DNA of 39,895 nt, taken from the NCBI GenBank assembly GCA_028280735.1, contig JANQLH010000468.1, positions 1 through 39,895 of the forward strand. The letters are read 5' to 3'. A program made the translations under genes and the position numbers. Within the stretch, counting starts at the first letter, position 1; the number at the start of each line of letters is the position of its first letter. The notes beneath the pieces are model-generated. The model had not been told where the DNA came from, did no database searches, and saw only the letters and a list, made by a program, of their open reading frames with translations. The stretch is from SAR324 cluster bacterium. GTDB lineage: Bacteria; SAR324; XYD2-FULL-50-16. Below are positions 2,455 through 36,492 of the stretch, piece by piece.

Positions 2455-2751
2455 GGCTATACCCCTAATTTTTCAGAGTCAGACCGTAAAACGAACCTGT
2501 TATAGCTAAAAAATGCAATTTTTGGAGACTTTTAACACTTGGAGTGAATTGGTGAGGATAAGTTTCTAATTTTCCAGAACCATTTTTTACCTGTCTTGGA
2601 AATCCAGAAAAACGCCGGGTTGATTTTAACCGTATGATGAACCGGCGGGGAAATCGCAATATAGTTTGATAACCAGGGAACCATGATTAAATTTCTATGA
2701 CAAAATCAGCTGTTTATCCACGTTGTTAACATTTTTGTCGGATCAAACAGC
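2455..2751. other. Intergenic region with no supported gene
   Basis: This spacer lies between the hybrid kinase stop and the small membrane protein start. A 64-codon minus-strand frame is present but has no ribosome binding site, is basic throughout and resembles no known protein, so I left it out. It probably holds the promoter of the downstream membrane protein gene. Confidence 0.4.
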
Positions 2752-5700
2752 TTATTCCATAACCTTACTTCCTAATTGCTTTTCAAGTTCTCTATGCAAT
2801 ACGCTGCGATCGATCGGTTTTGATACATATCCGTTCATACCGGCATCAAAGCATTTTTGTTTATCGCCTACCATGGCATGGGCAGTCATTGCGATAATGG
2901 GAATATCGTGATTGATCTTGCCAGACTTATTACCCCGAATTAGTTCAGTCGCCTCTAATCCTCCCATTTCAGGCATCTGTAGATCCATTAAGACAATATC
3001 ATAGTTTTTCATCTGTAAAGCATTGATTGCCTCTTTTCCGTTTTCAACAATATCAATGCGATAGCCCATTTTTTCTAAAACTTTGTAGGCCAATTTCTGA
3101 TTTACCTTGTTATCTTCGGCTAGCAGAATATGGTGCTTTTTTGCTTTTGATTCTTCGAGCGAAAACCTGGTGATCAACCGTGATTTCTTTTTTGATTGCT
3201 TTTCTTCTGCTCGATACATTTTGGCTGTCGACAGGCAATCAAACAATTGAGACTGACTGATAGGCTTGGATAGAAACGCGTCAAAACCTATTTCTCTCGC
3301 TCGTGAAGCATCGCCTTTATGTCCGAAAGAGGTAAGCATTACCAAGATTACCCGATCATATTTCGAATCTGCCCGTATCGAGTCTCCGAGGGCTTCACCG
3401 TTCATGTCCGGCAACTGACTTTCAATGATTACAATATCAATGGGACGATCTTCAGAAAATGATTGTTCCAATAAATTCAGTGCCAAAGGTCCGTTATCGG
3501 CAGCTGTATAACGACAACCCCAGGTTCTGAGGTAGCCTTCAATAGTTTCCTGATGAGCCTTTTGGTCATCAACTACCAAAACCCGGTTACCCTTGATATC
3601 TCCAACTGTATCATCCGTAGAATCATCATGTTGTGACAGCTTCTCAAAGGAGGATGTAAAACTAAAGGTAGACCCGATACCCGGTTCACTCTCAATTTCC
3701 AACTCTCCTCCCATTAACTCGACCAGTTGTCTTGAAATAGCCAATCCGAGTCCTGTACCTCCGAATTTCCTGGTGACTGAAGCGTCAACCTGGGTAAAGG
3801 ATTCGAATAATTTAGTTTGATCTTGTGCAGAGATACCTATGCCTGTATCGCTAACATCAAACCTGATATGAGCATGTGTTTTGGTTTCTTTTTCAAGACC
3901 GAGTTTAATGATAACTTCTCCTTCCCCGGTGAATTTTATAGCGTTTCCGCACAGATTAAGAATGACTTGCCTTAACCTTCCGGGATCACCCCTTAATTTG
4001 GATGGAACATCAAAATCCACCATGAGGGCGAACTCCAATCCTTTTTCTTCGGCTTTTATTCTCAATAACCCGGCAGTCTCTTCAATAGCTGCCCTTAAGT
4101 CAAAATCGATGTTTTCAAATTCCAGTTTACCCGCTTCAATCTTGGAGAAATCCAGAATATCATTGATGATAACCAAGAGGGATTCAGCACTGTTTTGAAC
4201 GGTCTTCGCGTAGTCGTATTGATCTCCATTGAGGTTTGTTTCCATTAACAGACCGGTCATCCCAATGATGCCATTCATTGGTGTTCTGATTTCATGGCTC
4301 ATGTTTGCCAGAAAGTGGCTTTTGGCCAAATTTGCTTCAGCTGCTTCTTTTGCAAGCCTGTCGGAATTTTGAATGGAATGTCTGAGTTGTTGGATGACAT
4401 TATTGAGTTCCGCAGTTCTGTCTTCGACTTTTCTTTCCAGCTTTTCGTTCAATACGGTCAAGGCCCGGTTACTTTCATTTAATTCCCTGGATTTGATTTG
4501 CAGCCTGTTCGTGAGGTTCTCAACAGAAAGCAATGATTTGGAAAAACGCACGGAAATCAAATAAGCTTGGGCAAATATAAAAACCATCAATCCGAAAGGC
4601 ACATATAGACCAAGTTTTAGCAGTTCCAAACCATGTAAAACGTCGTTTATCACCGTTAAAAACAAGACAATAAACCCCAGCATAAATATGACGGCTCCCT
4701 CTCGTTTTCTGCGAGTAGCCACAATCAAAACATATAATACGTAGATGCATATAATGATCGTCACTATCTGGTAAGAAACGGTAAAGTTGGTAAAAAGAGA
4801 AACTGGAAGCAACAAGACACTTGAGGAGTAAAGAAAACTTAAACCAATGGTAAATTTAACGACCGCTTGTTTGAGTTCTTCTGGAAAAAGCGAACGGAGA
4901 TAAATCAAAAAAACCGGTATTGCAACATAGAAAGAAAGAAAATCCAGAATGACAATTTGACTAAAGGATATATTCGGAACCAAATGGCTTAAAAAATAAT
5001 TGCCCTGAACGATAATACGAATGGATATGATTAGACAGAGTAAACCAAAATAAATAGGGGTTCTTTCTTTTTTTCGGTTTTTTGCCAGGCTTAAATGATA
5101 AAGCCCCATAATCACCAGACCGCCAAAAATGAAAAAATCCAAGGCTATGTCTGTCTCGAGTTCCCTGACTAGGGTTTTTTCAGTACCAATTTGAAGCGCA
5201 GCTGTCGGTCCACCTGATATGTGCCGAAAGCTTGCTATGTGAAGAACAACTTCAATAATCGGATCACTGGTTTCGAAGCCGACAACATGAGGATAAAATC
5301 TTGGAAACGTTGTTTCGGCATTCTTTCCCGGTGTCCCGGATGAACTCAGCAGATTGCCGTTCAGGTAGATATGCGAAGCTGTGTAGATTTCCCCGATCCG
5401 TAAGGCCAAACGTTCATTCGTTTCTTTTACCAGAATTTTCAACCGATAGCTCGCAAAACCTCTTTTCGGCAATGCCACTCCCTCCCAAACGAATCCGTTC
5501 CAGACCCCGGGGACTTGGATGAAATCAGAACTCCGAGTCACACCTGTTGTAAACCCATTACCGGGTGTAACAAACTGTTTCCAATAAAATTCCCATTCTC
5601 CGGAAAGATTAACCGGACCTTCTTCTGCAAAGTCCCAGTGCCTGAGATCAATAATCCCCTGTTGAACCTTGGGTGCATATTTATTCGGAGAGTTGCTTGA

Positions 5701-19268: not shown

Positions 19269-19706
19269 ATGCGACTGACTCGGGCTGGTGAGTACGCCAT
19301 AAGGTGTATCAGCTATCTTTCGAAAAAAGGATTGGGGGTGAGCATTTCCAAACAGGAAATTGCTGAACAAGGGGAAATACCGCCTAGTTTCCTGGCAAAG
19401 ATAGCGCAGGATTTAAGCAAGGGTGGGTTAATCGAAATCCAGCAGGGTGCCAAAGGCGGTTATCGTCTCTTGAAAGCCCCTGAGGATATCACTCTCCTGG
19501 AAGTGGTAGAGATTATGATAGGCAGAATCTATCTTAACGATTGTGTAGGAAGACCGGCCAGTTGCCCTTCCAGTCCTCGCTGCCTTGTCCACAAGGTTTG
19601 GGATAATGCCAGCGAAGAATTGAGAACTAATCTGGCCAAGGCTAATTTCGCACAATTGAGTCAAGAGAATTATTGTCTTCCACATGGTCCAATGCTTGAT
19701 AATTAG
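19269..19706 (+). CDS. Rrf2-family Fe-S transcriptional regulator
   Basis: This 145-residue DNA-binding protein has the Rrf2 winged helix at the N terminus (RLTRAGEYAIRCISYLS, then the recognition region IPPSFLAKIAQDLSKGGLI and the wing QQGAKGGYRL). Cys92, Cys99 and Cys105 (spacing C-x6-C-x5-C) are placed like the cluster ligands of IscR and NsrR, so it should sense redox, oxygen or nitric oxide through a [2Fe-2S] or [4Fe-4S] cluster. GGAG stands 7 bases before the ATG. It lies upstream of cydAB on the same strand, with a 354-base leader between. Control of cytochrome bd and of itself is the obvious hypothesis. Confidence 0.92.
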   Translation: MRLTRAGEYAIRCISYLSKKGLGVSISKQEIAEQGEIPPSFLAKIAQDLSKGGLIEIQQGAKGGYRLLKAPEDITLLEVVEIMIGRIYLNDCVGRPASCPSSPRCLVHKVWDNASEELRTNLAKANFAQLSQENYCLPHGPMLDN

Positions 19707-20060
19707 AGTAAATTCTACCTTAATCGGTGAACAGGCATTTAACCTGGTAATTTATTCTGAAGAAACTCTCAAGTATCTTATTCTTTATATGGGGATGGTT
19801 TCATGGGCATGACGGCAGGAAAAAGTTAAAGGAAACGTTTTTATTAAGCCTTTTTTATGCTTGGCGTTTTAAAGGTGCATTTTCCCCAAGTTTTCTGAAT
19901 ACCAATTTTGCAATTGAAGCAGAACGTGGAGATCACGTGATGGACCAGCTTATCAGATCGGTTCTTTAGAGTACGGATCAATAAGCTGAAACAACAGAAT
20001 CCCAAACAATGTTGCCGATTTTGGGGCAGCTTTTTTTAGGACTAAACCTGGAGGTTAATT
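19707..20060 (+). promoter_or_regulatory. cydA leader region
   Basis: No gene is seen. The region contains a 10-base palindrome ATCACGTGAT (about 19932-19941), a hairpin built from CAGCTTAT (19946-19953) and ATAAGCTG (19981-19988), and a terminator-like structure ending in seven Ts. The ribosome site CTGGAGG precedes the cydA ATG. The same leader may end the Rrf2 transcript or attenuate read-through into cydAB. Confidence 0.5.
20011..20037 (+). terminator. Intrinsic terminator or attenuator just before cydA
   Basis: GTTGCC (20011-20016) pairs with GGCAGC (20025-20030), with one G-U pair and an 8-base loop, and seven Ts follow at 20031-20037. An outer alternative pairs AAGCTG (19983-19988) with CAGCTT (20027-20032), with CCCAAA (20001-20006) pairing TTTGGG (20020-20025) inside. 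It lies 23 bases before the cydA start, on the same strand. Confidence 0.55.
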
Positions 20061-21596
20061 ATGGTTGAGATTGATCTAAGCATGGTAAACTGGGCTCGTG
20101 CCCAATTTGCCTTAACGGCGATGTATCATTGGTTGTTTGTGCCGTTGACGCTGGGACTCTCGTTTTTGTGTGCTTTTTTCGAATCGATTTACGTTAAAAC
20201 CGGAAAAGAAGAATGGAAGTCAATTACCAAATTCTGGATGACATTGTTCGCAATTAACTTCGCAGTTGGGGTTGCCACAGGAATCATTCTGGAATTTGAA
20301 TTCGGAACAAACTGGTCGAATTACTCCTGGATGGTAGGAGATATCTTTGGAGCACCGTTGGCTATTGAAGGTATTTTTGCATTCTTTATAGAAGCGACCT
20401 TCTTTGCCGTTATGTTTTTTGGTTGGGATAGGGTTTCAAAAAAGTTCCATCTGTTTTCAACATGGATGGTTGCAATCGGGGCAAACCTTTCAGCAGTTTG
20501 GATTCTTGTAGCCAATGCCTGGATGCAGAATCCGGTAGGCATGAAGTTCAACCTGGATAAAACCCGGTTTGAGATGTTCAACTTTGCTGACGTCGTGTTT
20601 AACCCGGTGGCTGTTTCCAAGTTTACCCATACTTCAAGTTCCGGATTTCTTTTTGCTTCACTGTTCGTAATCACGGTCTCCTCTTGGTATTTAATCAAAG
20701 GCAGACACATCGAAATGGCAAAAAAATCAATTGTGGTCGCATCAGTATTTGGATTGATCTCGTCAGGATATGTAATCTGGACAGGAGATCGTTCCGCATA
20801 CGATGTCGCACAACAACAACCCATGAAACTGGCTGCCATGGAGGGCCTCTACGAAGGCGAGCGCTCTGCAAGTGTTAGTGTTTTCGGAATTTTAAACAGC
20901 AATAAACAGCCGGGAGATGACCAAGACCCGTTCCATTTAAACATTAAAGTGCCATTCGTACTTTCCTATCTGGCAAATCGCTCCTTTGATTCTTTTGTTC
21001 CGGGAGTGGACGATTTGCTTTATGGAAACGCTGCCGAATCCGTAGAAGGAGTTGAAAGCAAAATTGCCATCGGAAAAAAAGCTTTAGAAGATCTGGCTGT
21101 CTATAAACAGGCCAAGAAGGACAAGGATGAAGATCTGGCCCAACAAGCCATGGCAAGCTTCAGAGAAGGAGAAAAATACCTGGGTTACGGTTATCTGGAC
21201 ACCCCTGAAGAAGCCGTACCAAATGTTGCGATCACTTTTTACGCCTTCCGTGTCATGTTCATACTCGGGTCTGCGTTTCCAATTATCTTCCTGCTCTTCC
21301 TCTTTTTCACCATGAAAGGGACCATTACCAAGCAGAGATGGTTACTGCCCATCGGACTTTTCTCCGTGTTTTTTGGGATGCTTGCCTCTCAGGCAGGTTG
21401 GATTGTCGCGGAACTCGGAAGACAGCCCTGGGCCATTCAGGACTTCCTACCGGTGAATGTTGCTACAACAAACCTTTCAGCTTCCAACGTTCAAATTACA
21501 TTTGCCTTGTTTTTCATTGTATTTACAGTTCTGCTCATCGCTGAGATCAAGATCATGCTCAAGCAAATTTCAATCGGACCGGAGGGCTCAAAATGA
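20061..21596 (+). CDS. cydA: Cytochrome bd oxidase subunit I (CydA)
   Basis: This is the catalytic subunit of the high-affinity quinol oxidase that reduces oxygen to water in the inner membrane. The 511 residues form about nine membrane helices. Heme ligands are His190 (heme b558, SKFTHTSS), Met399 (VMFILG) and His23 (AMYHWLFVPL). The acidic pair near the heme site is Glu103 and Glu111. The quinol loop starts at GDRSAYDVAQQQPMKLAAMEG (first 20 residues only are needed to recognise it), and ELGRQPW (451-457) is the family signature. The loop between helices contains a long, Lys- and Glu-rich insert (about 320-385) before the Met ligand. GGAGG stands before the ATG. The stop overlaps the cydB start (ATGA). 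Confidence 0.97.
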   Translation: MVEIDLSMVNWARAQFALTAMYHWLFVPLTLGLSFLCAFFESIYVKTGKEEWKSITKFWMTLFAINFAVGVATGIILEFEFGTNWSNYSWMVGDIFGAPLAIEGIFAFFIEATFFAVMFFGWDRVSKKFHLFSTWMVAIGANLSAVWILVANAWMQNPVGMKFNLDKTRFEMFNFADVVFNPVAVSKFTHTSSSGFLFASLFVITVSSWYLIKGRHIEMAKKSIVVASVFGLISSGYVIWTGDRSAYDVAQQQPMKLAAMEGLYEGERSASVSVFGILNSNKQPGDDQDPFHLNIKVPFVLSYLANRSFDSFVPGVDDLLYGNAAESVEGVESKIAIGKKALEDLAVYKQAKKDKDEDLAQQAMASFREGEKYLGYGYLDTPEEAVPNVAITFYAFRVMFILGSAFPIIFLLFLFFTMKGTITKQRWLLPIGLFSVFFGMLASQAGWIVAELGRQPWAIQDFLPVNVATTNLSASNVQITFALFFIVFTVLLIAEIKIMLKQISIGPEGSK

Positions 21597-22741
21597 TAGG
21601 ATCACTGGATTATTCAACACTTCAACTACTTTGGTGGTTTCTATGTTCTGTCGTAGGAGCCTTGTTTTTATTCCTTAACCTGGTACAGGGCGGACAAACA
21701 TTGTTATGGCAAGTTGCAAAGACTGATGTGGAAAGCTCCCTGGTAATCAATTCCCTGGGAAGAAAATGGGAACTGCCCTTCACAACCTTGGTACTATTCG
21801 GCGGTGCCCTGTTTGCTGCTTTTCCAAAGTTCTATGCCACTAGTTTTGGCGGTGCCTACTGGGTTTGGATTCTGATTTTGTTTTCTTTTGTCATTCAGGC
21901 AGTCAGTTACGAATACCGGAAAAAACCAGATAACTTCCTGGGCGCAAAGACCTACGAGCTTTTTCTGCTCTTAAACGGTGCGGTAGGTATCTTGTTGATT
22001 GGTGTGGCAGTCGGAACCTTTTATACCGGTTCCAATTTTACGCTTAACGACTACAACCAGGTAACCTGGGATTATACACTGGGTGGAATCAACTTAAGAG
22101 GTCTGGAAGCAGCCTTTTCCCTGTTCAATCTTTCCCTGGGTATCTTCCTGGTGTTTAATGCCCGCGTATTGGGTGCCTTGTACCTGTTAAACAGTATCGA
22201 TTTTTCCAATACTCCCGATCTGGAAGCAAGATTGAGAAAAGCAATCTTAACCAACTTCCTAATCTCGCTGCCATTCCTGCTCTATTTCCTGGTATCAGTC
22301 TTAGTGATGGACGGTTTCGGCTTCGATACGGAAGGTATTGTTTCCATAGTTGAATACAAGTATCTTGGAAACCTGTTGGCGGTGCCCGCACTATTGATAT
22401 TTTTGCTGGCGGGAGTGATTTTGGTTATAACCGGTGTTTATTTTACGAAATTTAAAAACAGCTATCGAGGAATCTGGCCATACGGACTCGGAACGGTGCT
22501 GGTCGGACTCACTGTTCTTTGCCTTCCGGCATTCAACAACACATCTTTTTATCCTTCCAAGCTGGATTTGCAATCAAGCCTGACCATCTATAACGCTTCA
22601 TCCAGTCATTTTACCTTGACGACCATGACATATGTCTCCCTGGGTATTCCATTTGTCCTGGCGTACATTGCTTATGTCTGGCGGCAAATGGATTCCAAAA
22701 AGTTGACATCCGATGAAGTAACTAAAGGCAAGGCTTATTAA
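21593..22741 (+). CDS. cydB: Cytochrome bd oxidase subunit II (CydB)
   Basis: This integral membrane partner of CydA has 382 residues, close to the E. coli 379, with about eight or nine membrane helices. The N terminus has WWFLCSVVGALFLFLNLVQGG, a variant of the usual opening in which the conserved Gly-Gln-Gly-type turn follows helix 1 (first 20 residues shown). A later helix pair contains LFNLSLGIFLVFNARVLGA. Its ATG overlaps the cydA stop by four bases, giving translational coupling and equal subunit supply. A further small membrane gene starts 10 bases after its stop. cydDC, the usual maturation transporter, is not present in the window. Confidence 0.95.
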   Translation: MIGSLDYSTLQLLWWFLCSVVGALFLFLNLVQGGQTLLWQVAKTDVESSLVINSLGRKWELPFTTLVLFGGALFAAFPKFYATSFGGAYWVWILILFSFVIQAVSYEYRKKPDNFLGAKTYELFLLLNGAVGILLIGVAVGTFYTGSNFTLNDYNQVTWDYTLGGINLRGLEAAFSLFNLSLGIFLVFNARVLGALYLLNSIDFSNTPDLEARLRKAILTNFLISLPFLLYFLVSVLVMDGFGFDTEGIVSIVEYKYLGNLLAVPALLIFLLAGVILVITGVYFTKFKNSYRGIWPYGLGTVLVGLTVLCLPAFNNTSFYPSKLDLQSSLTIYNASSSHFTLTTMTYVSLGIPFVLAYIAYVWRQMDSKKLTSDEVTKGKAY

Positions 22742-22988: not shown

Positions 22989-23600
22989 TTACTTCCTTGG
23001 CAACCGGTCGGTGATTTCCGGCAAATCTTTAAGCATCTCTTTCGCCCAAGGCGGTAAGCTCTTTTGCATCTTCACATAGCTACCTTTTTGTACCCGGGCA
23101 ATTTGTTTGAAAGGATCACTGTGTGATGAATTATCCAACAACCTGGCTTCATCGACTAAGGTAAGGATTTTGGTGACGTAACGTATGGTCCGTGGGATGC
23201 GAGTATGGATTTTTTCAGCAGGGACATCATGCCCGCCTTCACTCACTCGTTGTAGGACACGAGCCTGGTTAAGGCCAGTGGATTCAAGATGGATGTAAAC
23301 CAGAATAATTTTATAACCCAAGGCTTTGGCATTAGCGACAAAGTCTATCTTGGACACATGTGAAAAAACAGTCTCAAAACAGAAAGAAGCACCTTGTTGG
23401 ATCAGCTGTTCCCTCAGTTTTTCTGCTAAGTTGGCTGCATCGTAGCTCACGGTTTCCGGATGTTCAGGATTGATTGCCGCGGCTATGATGTCTGCATTAA
23501 TAAACTTCATTCCACGTTTTTTAAGAAAATCGCGGTAAAACGTAGATTTACCGGCTCCATTGCCGCCGGCGAGCAGCCAAAGCTGCTTTGTTTGTGTCAT
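22989..23600 (-). CDS. Zeta-type toxin (P-loop kinase)
   Basis: This is a 203-residue P-loop phosphotransferase. Its Walker A is GGNGAGKST (12-20). It also has the zeta-family residues NADIIA (Asp37), FETVFSH (Glu76, Thr77) and an Arg-rich helix after GGHDVPAEKI with HTRIPRTIRYV. Family toxins phosphorylate UDP-N-acetylglucosamine and block wall synthesis, but single-domain relatives of this short type have unproven substrates. Its start overlaps the antitoxin stop by four bases (ATGA), the arrangement of a toxin-antitoxin pair. A GTG or other start is not needed. It converges with cytochrome bd genes, ending 144 bases after the small subunit. Confidence 0.82.
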   Translation of the reverse strand: MTQTKQLWLLAGGNGAGKSTFYRDFLKKRGMKFINADIIAAAINPEHPETVSYDAANLAEKLREQLIQQGASFCFETVFSHVSKIDFVANAKALGYKIILVYIHLESTGLNQARVLQRVSEGGHDVPAEKIHTRIPRTIRYVTKILTLVDEARLLDNSSHSDPFKQIARVQKGSYVKMQKSLPPWAKEMLKDLPEITDRLPRK

Positions 23601-23995
23601 GTCGCGGCCGTAAATTCACCGTTTTTAAACTTGCCGGTTAACCTGGTGCCTTCGATAGAATCCACTTTATCTATCAAACCCGGTCGAGACGAACTTGCTT
23701 CGTAATAAACGGAAGCCTCCGTTACTTTATCAGACAGCGTTCCCTCGGCTCTCCCTGCTTCCAGGTCACCAAACACGTCTTCAGAATCAACGGGAACAGA
23801 ATCCAGTGATTCTACTTTCAATCTTTTGAAACCTTGAATCACGGCAAAAACATCAGAAATATCCAGAATGTTTTCCACGGTTTTTCCCAGTTCCGCCCAA
23901 AATTCAATCTGCTTCGGAACAGAACGTTTTTGTATGGTTGCCTCTCTTTCCGCGGCTGCAACCAAAGCCGGATTTAATCGCATGGGGCTGGCCAT
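23597..23995 (-). CDS. ParD-like antitoxin
   Basis: This 132-residue protein fits the ParD-like antitoxin family. The N-terminal 55 residues are a short ribbon-helix-helix-like unit (MRLNPALVAAAEREATIQK, then QIEFWAELGKTVENIL). The rest is an acidic, flexible tail (about 60-132) that could wrap and inhibit the toxin. AAGGA lies 7 bases before the ATG. The TGA overlaps the toxin ATG, giving coupled translation with the antitoxin first. The pair is likely autoregulated through repeats in the promoter. The acidic tail is longer than in standard ParD proteins (about 80 residues). Confidence 0.8.
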   Translation of the reverse strand: MASPMRLNPALVAAAEREATIQKRSVPKQIEFWAELGKTVENILDISDVFAVIQGFKRLKVESLDSVPVDSEDVFGDLEAGRAEGTLSDKVTEASVYYEASSSRPGLIDKVDSIEGTRLTGKFKNGEFTAAT

Positions 23996-33409: not shown

Positions 33410-34417
33410 TTAAAATCCCAATAGATCCAAGATATGGACTTCCGCACGACGATTTACACCTTGATGGGGGTATCCGTGGATGTGAATGGCAGGATTGAAA
33501 TTCAGTTCGATTACACTATAGACCTCATGAAGTGTATTCATAACAGGATTAGAAATAGAGCCTGCAATAATGATGTCTGCACCGCAAATTCTGGCTCCCA
33601 CGGCTTGTGCCGATTTTATTGCGATTTCTTTGAACACCGGTGACATGTCATCGGTATAGTCTATGCTGTCACCCCCGGTGCTGATATTGGAATTCTTCCG
33701 CAGGTAAACTACCTCTCCGTTTTTTGGAATAGTGTTGAAGTCTTTCCCCTGTTGTTTGAGAAATGTTTTTTCAACGGTTCCAAGCTGAACCTGTTCCAGC
33801 GGCTTTTTGTAACCAATACCTCTTAAAGGATTGTTGTTTTTTGATTCAACCAGTTCCGAAATAGTATTTGTACCGTTTCCCGTCACATTGGCCGCAATCC
33901 TCTGCAAAACTCCAATTACCTTGTTATCAATTATTAAAAATCGGTACTCTTTGCCATCGATAAACTCTTCCGCGATGATTGAATGATCAAATTCGAATGC
34001 CTCATCCACGGCATCCCGGTATACCTTTGTTGAACTGAGTGATTTGATGATAGTGATTCCGATTCCAAAATTGGTACTTTTTGGTTTGATGACAATATCC
34101 TGTCCTGCCAGTTCGTTATAAGTGTCCATGGCATCTTGAACCGTATCGAACACATATCCGGCCGGAACCTGTATTCCGCTATTCTCAAGAATCGATTTTG
34201 TTACAGCCTTATTCTCCATGATTAAAGGAGCCATGTAGTTATCTGCCGAGGTGCGCGTGGCTTGTTTGATGTACTCGGTTTTTCCGTTTTTGGTTAACTG
34301 CAGAAAATTGTCCTTTTTATCGAGGACTTTAACCGTAACGTTCCGATTTTCTGCTTCGGCAATCAACAGTTGCGTGGACAACTCCAAATCATTAAAATGT
34401 GATGCTGGCAAATCCAT
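33410..34417 (-). CDS. ATP-grasp glutathione synthetase, matching the C-terminal half of GshF
   Basis: The start is ATG 34417, with GGGAGGAG five bases upstream. The 335-residue product closely resembles the C-terminal ATP-grasp half of bifunctional GshF: ELSTQLLIAEA near the N terminus, VIKPKSTNFGIGITI (nucleotide site), EEFIDGKEYRFLIID, RIAANVTGNGTNTI, LRKNSNISTGGDSIDYT and the metal-binding ELNFNPAIHIH. It should ligate glycine to gamma-glutamylcysteine using ATP. It is unlike the E. coli GshB family. Its gene follows gshA by 28 bases and is presumably in the same operon, so the two gene products together do what GshF does in one chain. A role in making cyanophycin-like polymers is much less likely. 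Confidence 0.85.
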   Translation of the reverse strand: MDLPASHFNDLELSTQLLIAEAENRNVTVKVLDKKDNFLQLTKNGKTEYIKQATRTSADNYMAPLIMENKAVTKSILENSGIQVPAGYVFDTVQDAMDTYNELAGQDIVIKPKSTNFGIGITIIKSLSSTKVYRDAVDEAFEFDHSIIAEEFIDGKEYRFLIIDNKVIGVLQRIAANVTGNGTNTISELVESKNNNPLRGIGYKKPLEQVQLGTVEKTFLKQQGKDFNTIPKNGEVVYLRKNSNISTGGDSIDYTDDMSPVFKEIAIKSAQAVGARICGADIIIAGSISNPVMNTLHEVYSVIELNFNPAIHIHGYPHQGVNRRAEVHILDLLGF

Positions 34418-34445
34418 ATATGCTCCTCCCTTTCTTCCCAAATAC

Positions 34446-35927
34446 TCAAGACGCCATCATTGTTTTTTCAGGTTGTGCCCTGCCGTGTTGCTTCGCCTTA
34501 TTTAAACCAAATGTTTCGTGGTTTTGGTTTGAAGCATCAATTTCCGCAACAATGCGTGCCGAGGGTAATTGAGCCAAATCCCTCAGTTTTGAATATTGGG
34601 CCTCGACGCTGCTTGTAAAATCGCCTTTACCTCCGGCTTCATCCAACATGTCTGCTATTTCAAATAATTTCGAAAACAACTCTTCACCCCAGTTTTGTAT
34701 CGTTACCTTTTTATTTGAATGGGTTCGAAGTTTCAGTTTTTCGTTTCTGCCATATAAAGCGGTTAACTGGGCGTTATCGTTAAATCTTTCCAGATCTTCA
34801 CGAGTCAGATCTCTACAGCTTTCAAACGTGCAAAACAGAATAAAAACATGAGTAAAATAGAGTTGGTTGAGACCTATACCAGGAGTTTCATAGGGATCCA
34901 GATCAAACGTCCTGATCTCGATATAATCGATTCCCTTTTGCTCCAGCGCATCCAACATGATTTGCCCCTTTTCTAACTGTTGCTTAAACCTGACCGGCGC
35001 GTAATATTCATTTTCGATCTGCAACAGATTGTCGTTTAACTGCACCTGCTTACCCTGTTGATAGATTCCGAGTCGATTATAGGTATCCACTTTTGTTGTT
35101 AATGCTTCTCTCAGTTGGGAAATGTAAGTACCCAGGGAGTTGTACGAAACATTCAACTGGTTTTGAAAACTATTTTCATAACCAAAGCGACTCATACGGA
35201 GCGAGGTAGCATGTTTGACCGGATCATTAAAGGTAACACGACAACCGGCTTTATCGCACATCAAGGCATTTCGCTTGAGAAAAGTACCCATGTAATCGTC
35301 CGTACCCATTGGGGAGGCTCCGAACAAATAAATCATCAACCAGCGATACCCCAGGAAATTCTTGACAAGATTTAAATAAACTTCATCCCTAAAATGCCGA
35401 ACACCAAGTGTCCCGCTAAAACGATCGTATAAGGTTTCAAGAAAACCGCTGCCAAAGGAAAAATTATAGTGAATACCGGAGATCATTTGCATGCGTTTGC
35501 CATATCTCAAAGCGAGACCGGATCGATAGATTTCCTTCGCTCTTCCTTCCGGAGAGTCATCGTAACTCGCAATAGGAATCAATTCATCCGGTGGTAACGC
35601 TCCCGGCATACTTAATGGCCAGAACAACTCGTTACCCATGGATTGAGAAGCCCCTGAGTGCAGCTCTGACAAGAAACGATGGGTTGCTTCTATGTCCCCA
35701 AAGGCGGGTGTAATTAGTTCCACCTGGCTTTCAGAAAAATCAACAGTTATCTGCTGATTGTTGATTTTATCTCCAAAGGATTCAGGATGGGGAGTAAGCG
35801 CCAGGTCTCCGGTCGGGGTGATTCGCAGGGATTCTTTTTCCAATCCCCATTTACCTTCTAAAAGCTGACTGTTTAAACCTTTGTTGGAAAACAGTTCCAT
35901 TATTGATGAAAAATCCCATCTCGCCAT
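34446..35927 (-). CDS. gshA: Glutamate-cysteine ligase (GshA), class I
   Basis: This enzyme forms gamma-glutamylcysteine from glutamate and cysteine with ATP, the committed step of glutathione synthesis. The 493 residues fit the proteobacterial class I enzyme (about 518 in E. coli) and its relatives fused in GshF. Motifs include GKWGLEKESLRI near the N terminus (ATP and metal site), ISGIHYNFSF, LFGASPMGTDD and IEIRTFDLDPYETPGI. The C terminus (QHGRAQPEKTMMAS) is short and ends just before the separate ATP-grasp gene. GGAGG lies 8 bases before the ATG. The ArsR-type gene lies 71 bases upstream on the same strand. Confidence 0.92.
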   Translation of the reverse strand: MARWDFSSIMELFSNKGLNSQLLEGKWGLEKESLRITPTGDLALTPHPESFGDKINNQQITVDFSESQVELITPAFGDIEATHRFLSELHSGASQSMGNELFWPLSMPGALPPDELIPIASYDDSPEGRAKEIYRSGLALRYGKRMQMISGIHYNFSFGSGFLETLYDRFSGTLGVRHFRDEVYLNLVKNFLGYRWLMIYLFGASPMGTDDYMGTFLKRNALMCDKAGCRVTFNDPVKHATSLRMSRFGYENSFQNQLNVSYNSLGTYISQLREALTTKVDTYNRLGIYQQGKQVQLNDNLLQIENEYYAPVRFKQQLEKGQIMLDALEQKGIDYIEIRTFDLDPYETPGIGLNQLYFTHVFILFCTFESCRDLTREDLERFNDNAQLTALYGRNEKLKLRTHSNKKVTIQNWGEELFSKLFEIADMLDEAGGKGDFTSSVEAQYSKLRDLAQLPSARIVAEIDASNQNHETFGLNKAKQHGRAQPEKTMMAS

Positions 35928-35998
35928 GGTGTTCCCTCCCGAGACCTAAAAAAAGTTTTATTTTTCGATTATCTTCAAACCACCGGTTTAAAAACAGA

Positions 35999-36295
35999 TT
36001 AGACAAAGTTTTTGATTAGTTCGATTGCTTCTTCATTAATCTTGCACGACATGGTTTTTCCCTCGCGAGTGCAGCTTATTAACCCGGCATTTTGCAACTC
36101 TTTCATATGGTGGGAGATCGTCGAACGAGAAATCGACATGCAATCACATGCCTTGGTGAATGCCTTTTCAATACCACTACAACACGCCAGGTCTTCACCG
36201 GCAGACATGTTGTTTATCTGCCATTCGTACAAATACTTAAACAATTTCAATCGTTGCTCATTGGAAAGAGCTTTGAATATTTTTGTCAGTTCCAT
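35999..36295 (-). CDS. ArsR-family regulator, cysteine-rich
   Basis: This 98-residue winged-helix repressor opens with the ArsR signature FKALSNEQRLKLFKYLYEW and has the recognition helix SRSTISHHMKELQNAGLI. It holds six cysteines (Cys38, 39, 50, 52, 75, 84) and an adjacent His pair (His62, His63). Cys38, Cys39, Cys50 and Cys52 flank the DNA-binding helices, so metal binding or thiol oxidation could control binding. It lies upstream of gshA and the ATP-grasp gene on the same strand, so regulation of glutathione synthesis by metal or thiol stress is the natural inference. The start codon has no Shine-Dalgarno and may be leaderless. The start region carries a palindrome that can be its operator. 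Confidence 0.82.
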   Translation of the reverse strand: MELTKIFKALSNEQRLKLFKYLYEWQINNMSAGEDLACCSGIEKAFTKACDCMSISRSTISHHMKELQNAGLISCTREGKTMSCKINEEAIELIKNFV

Positions 36296-36317
36296 AGTTC
36301 TATAACTATCGAACTAT
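36294..36317. promoter_or_regulatory. Candidate ArsR operator, three half-sites
   Basis: ATAGTTC (36294-36300) and GAACTAT (36311-36317) are a perfect 7-bp inverted repeat with a 10-base spacer, and ATAGTT (36294-36299) and AACTAT (36304-36309) give a nested repeat with a 4-base spacer. The palindrome overlaps the start codon of the regulator and the divergent spacer towards the small exported gene. Confidence 0.5.
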
Positions 36318-36492
36318 TATTGAAACGTCAATCCTTTGATACATGTTCAAGTATTTAAAATATTGCTATCAAGGGTGATGTTGAAAACAAGAACTCCCGG
36401 GTCGTTTCGTCTTTTATTTATCGGGCAGTTACATTAGAGTACAAGGCAAGCAAAATCGGAAGGTTTCTTAAAAAAAAAGCTGCAGAAATCCC

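Follow-up and report, generated by a model that had tools for sequence, protein, structure and literature searches.

Gene Organization of the Locus

The window analyzed here is a stretch of 39,895 nucleotides from a SAR324 cluster bacterium (contig JANQLH010000468.1). Three co-directional genes with intact open reading frames follow one another on its minus strand: arsR (35999..36295), encoding a 98-residue repressor of the ArsR/SmtB family; gshA (34446..35927), encoding a stand-alone glutamate-cysteine ligase of 493 residues, the length of the proteobacterial enzyme; and a gene for an unfused ATP-grasp ligase of the type found in the C-terminal half of GshF (33410..34417), predicted to be a glutathione synthetase. 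A 71-bp gap separates arsR from gshA, which has a ribosome-binding site of its own. The open reading frame of the ATP-grasp gene (33410-34441) opens with TTG, but the ATG at 34417, preceded by the Shine-Dalgarno sequence GGGAGGA, is the likely start and gives a protein of 335 residues. Counted from this ATG, the gene begins 28 bp after gshA, as a first-pass annotation of the same DNA had stated, and the regulator indeed carries the six cysteines reported there (C38, C39, C50, C52, C75, and C84).

With a stop codon, the 28-bp gap, and separate Shine-Dalgarno sequences, GshA and the ATP-grasp ligase are separate polypeptides, as they are in a relative of the same genus (genome G002). A frameshifted or broken gshF gene was ruled out on the grounds that neither gene is interrupted, that the ATP-grasp gene is preceded by a Shine-Dalgarno sequence of its own, and that the 64%-identical copy in G002 also consists of two genes. 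Elsewhere in the window, we noticed two small overlapping genes resembling a zeta-toxin-type kinase and its partner (22989-23995) and, by eye, an Rrf2-like regulator gene upstream of two genes resembling cytochrome bd oxidase subunits (19269-22741).

Two Enzymes for Glutathione Biosynthesis

In profile searches, the ATP-grasp protein matched positions 427-751 of the 756 in NF002688, the GshF model, with 458 bits and the ATP-grasp_6 family (PF18419) with 78 bits, and no stand-alone GshB model appeared among its profile matches. The nearest solved structures were those of GshF (3ln6, E 5e-88, and 3ln7), followed by cyanophycin synthetases. An alignment revealed that the protein keeps the many columns that are invariant across the C-domains of fused GshF. 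Together with the phylogeny described below, these matches confirm the earlier assignment of the protein to the GshF C-terminal type rather than to GshB.

GshA contains the Glu_cys_ligase domain (PF04262, 433 bits) with catalytic motifs like those of the E. coli enzyme when aligned to 1v4g. It scored 387 bits against the proteobacterial GshA model TIGR01434, just under the cut-off of 393, and 345 bits against the N-terminal part of NF002688, and is thus closer to proteobacterial GshA. The junction between the two genes coincides with the domain junction of GshF (NF002688 418/427). The genome of the window, which is 88% complete, contains a single copy of gshA and nothing above the PF02955 cut-off for GshB. 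The gshA-ATP-grasp pair is therefore the only glutathione route seen in this genome. Judging from their families, the two enzymes would make glutathione by forming gamma-glutamylcysteine (GshA) and then adding glycine (the ATP-grasp ligase).

A Conserved Candidate Operator Overlaps the arsR Promoter

An 18-bp palindrome, GTTCGATnnTTATnGAAC, overlaps the −10 region of the arsR promoter; a single base separates its end from the arsR ATG. This candidate operator (O1, GTTCGATAGTTATAGAAC, 36297..36314, minus strand) is accompanied by the −35 element TTGACG (36326..36331, minus strand), which reads TTGACA in the related loci L018, L037, L047, L126, and L128. O1 is identical in sequence and position in the window and in L018 from the G002 genome. 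Five clostridial loci carry it at the same place with 0-3 mismatches, and L034 from Marinimicrobiota carries a weak form. Overall, in seven of the eight loci, O1 stands at the same distance from the arsR start codon and overlaps TTGACA/G promoters. Another copy occupies the gap that follows arsR. In L047 and L128 it is perfect, and elsewhere it has 1-4 mismatches; in the window, this degenerate second candidate operator (O2, GTTTGAAGATAATCGAAA, 35963..35980, minus strand) has four mismatches and sits in the arsR-gshA gap.

At one mismatch or fewer, the operator had no match in 76 control loci (779 kb), and O1 is the single exact match in its own genome. A wider ArsR regulon was considered and rejected: with up to two mismatches, the genome contained 19 sites against 11 in the reversed control (palindromes being counted twice), which is not clearly more. 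The lone site with one mismatch lies inside a polyketide-synthase-like coding frame and was attributed to chance.

Non-coding DNA that is conserved between phyla in register with a promoter is the strongest evidence that ArsR controls both itself and the operon. The conserved candidate operator and the gene linkage described below make control by ArsR, in an autoregulated unit, likely, and to this extent they uphold the glutathione operon under ArsR control that had been proposed at first reading. The arsR message may be leaderless, given how near the predicted transcription start lies to the ATG.

The ArsR Sensor and Its Presumable Signal

The regulator belongs to a distinct ArsR subfamily and scores just above the cut-offs of the family models (25.8 against 22 for PF01022, 27.7 against 27 for PF12840, and 55.6 against 55 for NF033788). 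In an alignment of eight orthologues, C50 and C84 are invariant, C52 is present in seven of the eight, and C38/C39 and C75 vary. This placement matches none of the As(III) site types 1-3 described previously, represented by Cys32/34/37 in R773, Cys95/96/102 in AfArsR, and Cys15/16/55 in CgArsR (PMC11868830). The AlphaFold model (pLDDT 56) was too weak for placing the cysteines or for a fold search.

The neighboring genes offer further indications. In L126, acr3 (436 bits, cut-off 283) lies directly upstream and ends 41 bp before arsR. The order in L072 is arsR-arsC-like-gshA-ATP-grasp; the ArsR of this locus is of the canonical CxC kind, and the arsC-like protein matches arsenate reductase models below their cut-offs. 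No recognized arsenic gene adjoins the operon at either of the two SAR324 loci. Another contig of the window's genome (C119, L143) bears a putative ars locus composed of genes for a permease, a thioredoxin-like protein, Acr3, and an arsC-like phosphatase. From the neighboring genes and the cysteines, we infer that arsenic is the likeliest signal.

Distribution of the Three-Gene Cassette

The full arsR-gshA-ATP-grasp order was found in seven genomes from three phyla, including the window. Besides the window, it occurs in G002 (L018/L029), in L034 (Marinimicrobiota/Neomarinimicrobiota), and in L037, L047, L126, and L127 (Clostridia). Since the same order recurs at all these loci, the three genes are linked beyond chance, and the survey of other genomes suggested in the first-pass annotation has thus found the linkage in relatives. 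Among 52 SAR324 genomes, the ATP-grasp gene is present in two, both from the window's genus (two of the three genomes of the genus), and the genes flanking the operon differ between the window and G002. The differing flanks and the restriction to two SAR324 genomes suggest acquisition or movement as a cassette.

In L034 and L037, genes for an ABC ATPase and an ABC-2 permease come after the three genes, and in L047, an ATPase gene follows before the contig ends. The same ArsR subfamily heads such an ABC ATPase and ABC-2 permease pair (2609-4729) in L128, with two perfect operators and without any gsh gene. This arrangement suggests that the ABC-2 exporter pair and the gsh genes serve one response. 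Few genomes have the ArsR subfamily: it was found in 4 of 391 genomes from the class to which the L047 genome belongs and in 1 of 245 in the phylum of the L034 genome. Among 395 genomes from the phylum of a Desulfuromonadaceae genome, two had it, neither beside gsh genes; the ArsR relatives there (L155, 2250-2555, and L156, ~1696-2031) head other genes, and a perfect palindrome, GTTCGAGAATTCTCGAAC, follows arsR in L156. Carriage of this ArsR on plasmids was ruled out, the best matches reaching at most 39% identity.

Together with that of the window, we collected 19 unfused ATP-grasp proteins of the GshF C-terminal type. The Acetobacterium group (L033, L035, L039, L067, L069, and L147-L151) presents an orphan gene for such a protein together with a fused GshF elsewhere.

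Neighborhoods of Fused GshF

We inspected the flanks of 72 fused GshF loci. The set consists mostly of the loci closest to the query rather than of randomly drawn ones, and all counts refer to the fetched flanks. Genes of ars type were found beside 33 of the 72; an ArsR match was present at 28 loci, acr3, arsB, arsC, or arsP at 15, and a MATE gene at 56. In these 56 loci, gshF directly follows the MATE gene, often in the order arsR-MATE-gshF (L044, L054, L064, L080, L055, L108, and others), and some of the latter also have acr3, arsB, arsC, or arsP in the vicinity. Export of glutathione-metalloid conjugates may be the role of the MATE protein next to fused GshF. In L027 (Paenibacillus crassostreae pPC02), what appears to be a decayed gshF lies beside fghA; the annotation of this region lists only several short hypothetical proteins.

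Phylogeny of the Two Halves

In the tree of the C-terminal halves (62 rows), the 19 unfused proteins form one clade (support 100/99), grouping with the C-domains of GshF and not with GshB. The backbone among the fused proteins is unresolved in this tree, and constraining the fused proteins to monophyly gave a slightly higher likelihood (p-AU 0.55). In the tree of the N-terminal halves (56 rows, rooted on proteobacterial GshA), the fused N-halves form a clade of their own (100/100) that excludes all 11 unfused GshA proteins, and a single clade of unfused GshA was not rejected (p-AU 0.40). The roots of both trees rest on distant outgroups.

The alignment of the N-terminal halves contains a 22-column segment (TTKVDTYNRLGIYQQGKQVQL in the window) that every unfused and every proteobacterial GshA protein shown contains and that has less than 15% occupancy in the fused group. 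Likewise, the GshF structures 3ln7 and 3ln6 lack this segment, and 1v4g and 3nzt contain it.

Proposed Mechanism and Alternative Explanations

We consider it fairly probable that the three genes form a self-regulated operon for glutathione biosynthesis with an arsenite-like inducer, in which the enzymes represent an unfused lineage sister to fused GshF. In the resting cell, ArsR would sit on the palindrome over its own promoter and on the second site before gshA, keeping the operon repressed, as the position and conservation of the operators imply. A thiophilic ligand would then bind C50 and C84, together with C52 and perhaps C38/C39, the most likely candidate being arsenite or another soft metalloid or metal like it. 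ArsR would thereupon leave the DNA, and the operon would be transcribed. The glutathione produced by the two enzymes could buffer the metalloid for export via the Acr3 encoded elsewhere in the genome or, in some relatives, via the ABC-2 pair of the operon. Such an arrangement suggests glutathione synthesis on demand, as a defense against arsenic-like poisons. Only tentatively do we extend this reading to propose, as a rather doubtful possibility, that the cassette is the surviving unfused ancestor of GshF and that ArsR-controlled, arsenic-induced synthesis was the original setting of GshF-type enzymes, which spread among anaerobes with a dedicated exporter of glutathione-metalloid conjugates (ABC-2 here, MATE with the fused enzyme).

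The pair could also have arisen by fission of a fused gshF gene, with the two halves then becoming independent. The rooted C-half tree, which places the unfused proteins inside the fused ones with backbone support below 80, and the position of the gene gap at the GshF domain junction are both consistent with such an origin. However, the likelihood rises slightly when the fused C-halves are held together, and the fused N-halves form a clade without the unfused ones. With the 22-residue segment of proteobacterial GshA retained and a position outside the GshF clade, GshA is no remnant of a broken GshF; fission of any sampled GshF, all of which are segment-less, would require the segment to have been regained. 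The comparison of sequences hence favors the unfused pair as a sister or precursor lineage of fused GshF over a late fission product, and we regard fission as unlikely, even if an early event in a fused ancestor still carrying the segment is possible. The first-pass annotation had described a split GshF, either ancestor or fission product; the unfused pair stands, whereas "split" probably names the wrong direction, as GshA keeps features lost in the sampled GshF proteins.

The nature of the signal and the fate of gamma-glutamylcysteine might be read differently as well. Redox-sensing relatives of ArsR exist whose cysteines form disulfides or become alkylated, and the operon could belong to a general circuit for thiol, electrophile, or redox stress in which glutathione answers oxidative or aldehyde stress. 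The clustered cysteines, some of them vicinal (C38/C39), could sense oxidation, no arsenic gene adjoins the SAR324 loci, and some fused GshF loci (L026) adjoin genes for glutathione-dependent formaldehyde metabolism. Nevertheless, it is the vicinal pair and C75 that vary while C50 and C84 are invariant, and the adjacency of acr3 and arsC-like genes in L126 and L072, along with the frequency of arsenic genes around fused GshF, makes us hold this circuit to be somewhat unlikely. Acetobacterium and related genomes contain orphan copies of the ATP-grasp gene without gshA neighbors, in five cases in a genome that also has a separate fused GshF, which indicates that members of the unfused family can exist apart from gshA. 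The enzyme might accordingly have been repurposed to join another acceptor to gamma-glutamylcysteine, or to make another peptide, yielding a glutathione analogue. This seems improbable given the retained invariant columns of GshF C-domains, the linkage to gshA, and a genome with no other glutathione synthetase above the cut-off. As for ArsR being a chance neighbor of an independently transcribed gshA, which the 71-bp gap and the ribosome-binding site of gshA could accommodate, the conservation of gene order and operators in three phyla, with a second operator in that very gap, rules it out as a highly improbable coincidence. The operon with an arsenite-like inducer thus continues to be the reading that we prefer.

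Relation to Known Systems

GshF, an enzyme in wide use, has the appearance of a gene fusion, and to our knowledge, few unfused counterparts have been described. The ATP-grasp protein of the window is 45-54% identical to the C-domains of GshF/GshAB (NF002688, TIGR01435; 3ln6, 3ln7), with the same two reactions expected and the same junction point, but the window has two genes, a GshA with the 22-residue segment that is nearer to proteobacterial GshA, and an ArsR and operator of its own. The proteobacterial route of GshA (TIGR01434; 1v4g) and GshB shares with the window the length, segment, and catalytic motifs of GshA; it differs in the second enzyme, which in the window is an ATP-grasp ligase of the GshF C-terminal type, with PF02955 absent above its cut-off.

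Pairs of unfused GshF-C and GshA are already known from methanogens: in Methanobacterium, a stand-alone GshF-C-like protein occurs in synteny with a GshA-like gene, according to a review (PMC7278568). This pair resembles that of the window in having an unfused GshF-C-like ligase beside gshA. It is archaeal, the passage on it mentions no ArsR or operator, and the likeness is one of description only. In the literature within the scope of our search, mainly freely accessible papers, we found no description of the ArsR-headed form, the operator, or a wider link between GshF and arsenic.

The operon and the neighborhoods reported here tie GshF-type glutathione synthesis to arsenic resistance loci. 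With a well-supported unfused clade and a GshA that has a segment lost in the sampled GshF proteins, the order of events (neighboring genes, fusion, deletion) becomes testable, and the conserved operator can serve as it stands as a portable sensor with which to seek the inducers of glutathione synthesis in uncultured bacteria.

The ars operons headed by ArsR proteins of types 1-3 or with atypical As(III) sites (PMC11868830) are likewise autoregulated and have a cysteine-rich sensor. In the window, the cysteines are placed differently, and the predicted output of the operon is glutathione rather than an efflux pump or a reductase. The arsR-MATE-gshF loci of Clostridium, Paenibacillus, and Bacteroidota resemble the window in placing ArsR beside GshF-type synthesis, sometimes with acr3, arsB, or arsC. 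They differ in that their GshF is fused, their ArsR has the canonical CxC motif, and their exporter is of the MATE rather than the ABC-2 type; nor is the operator common to both.
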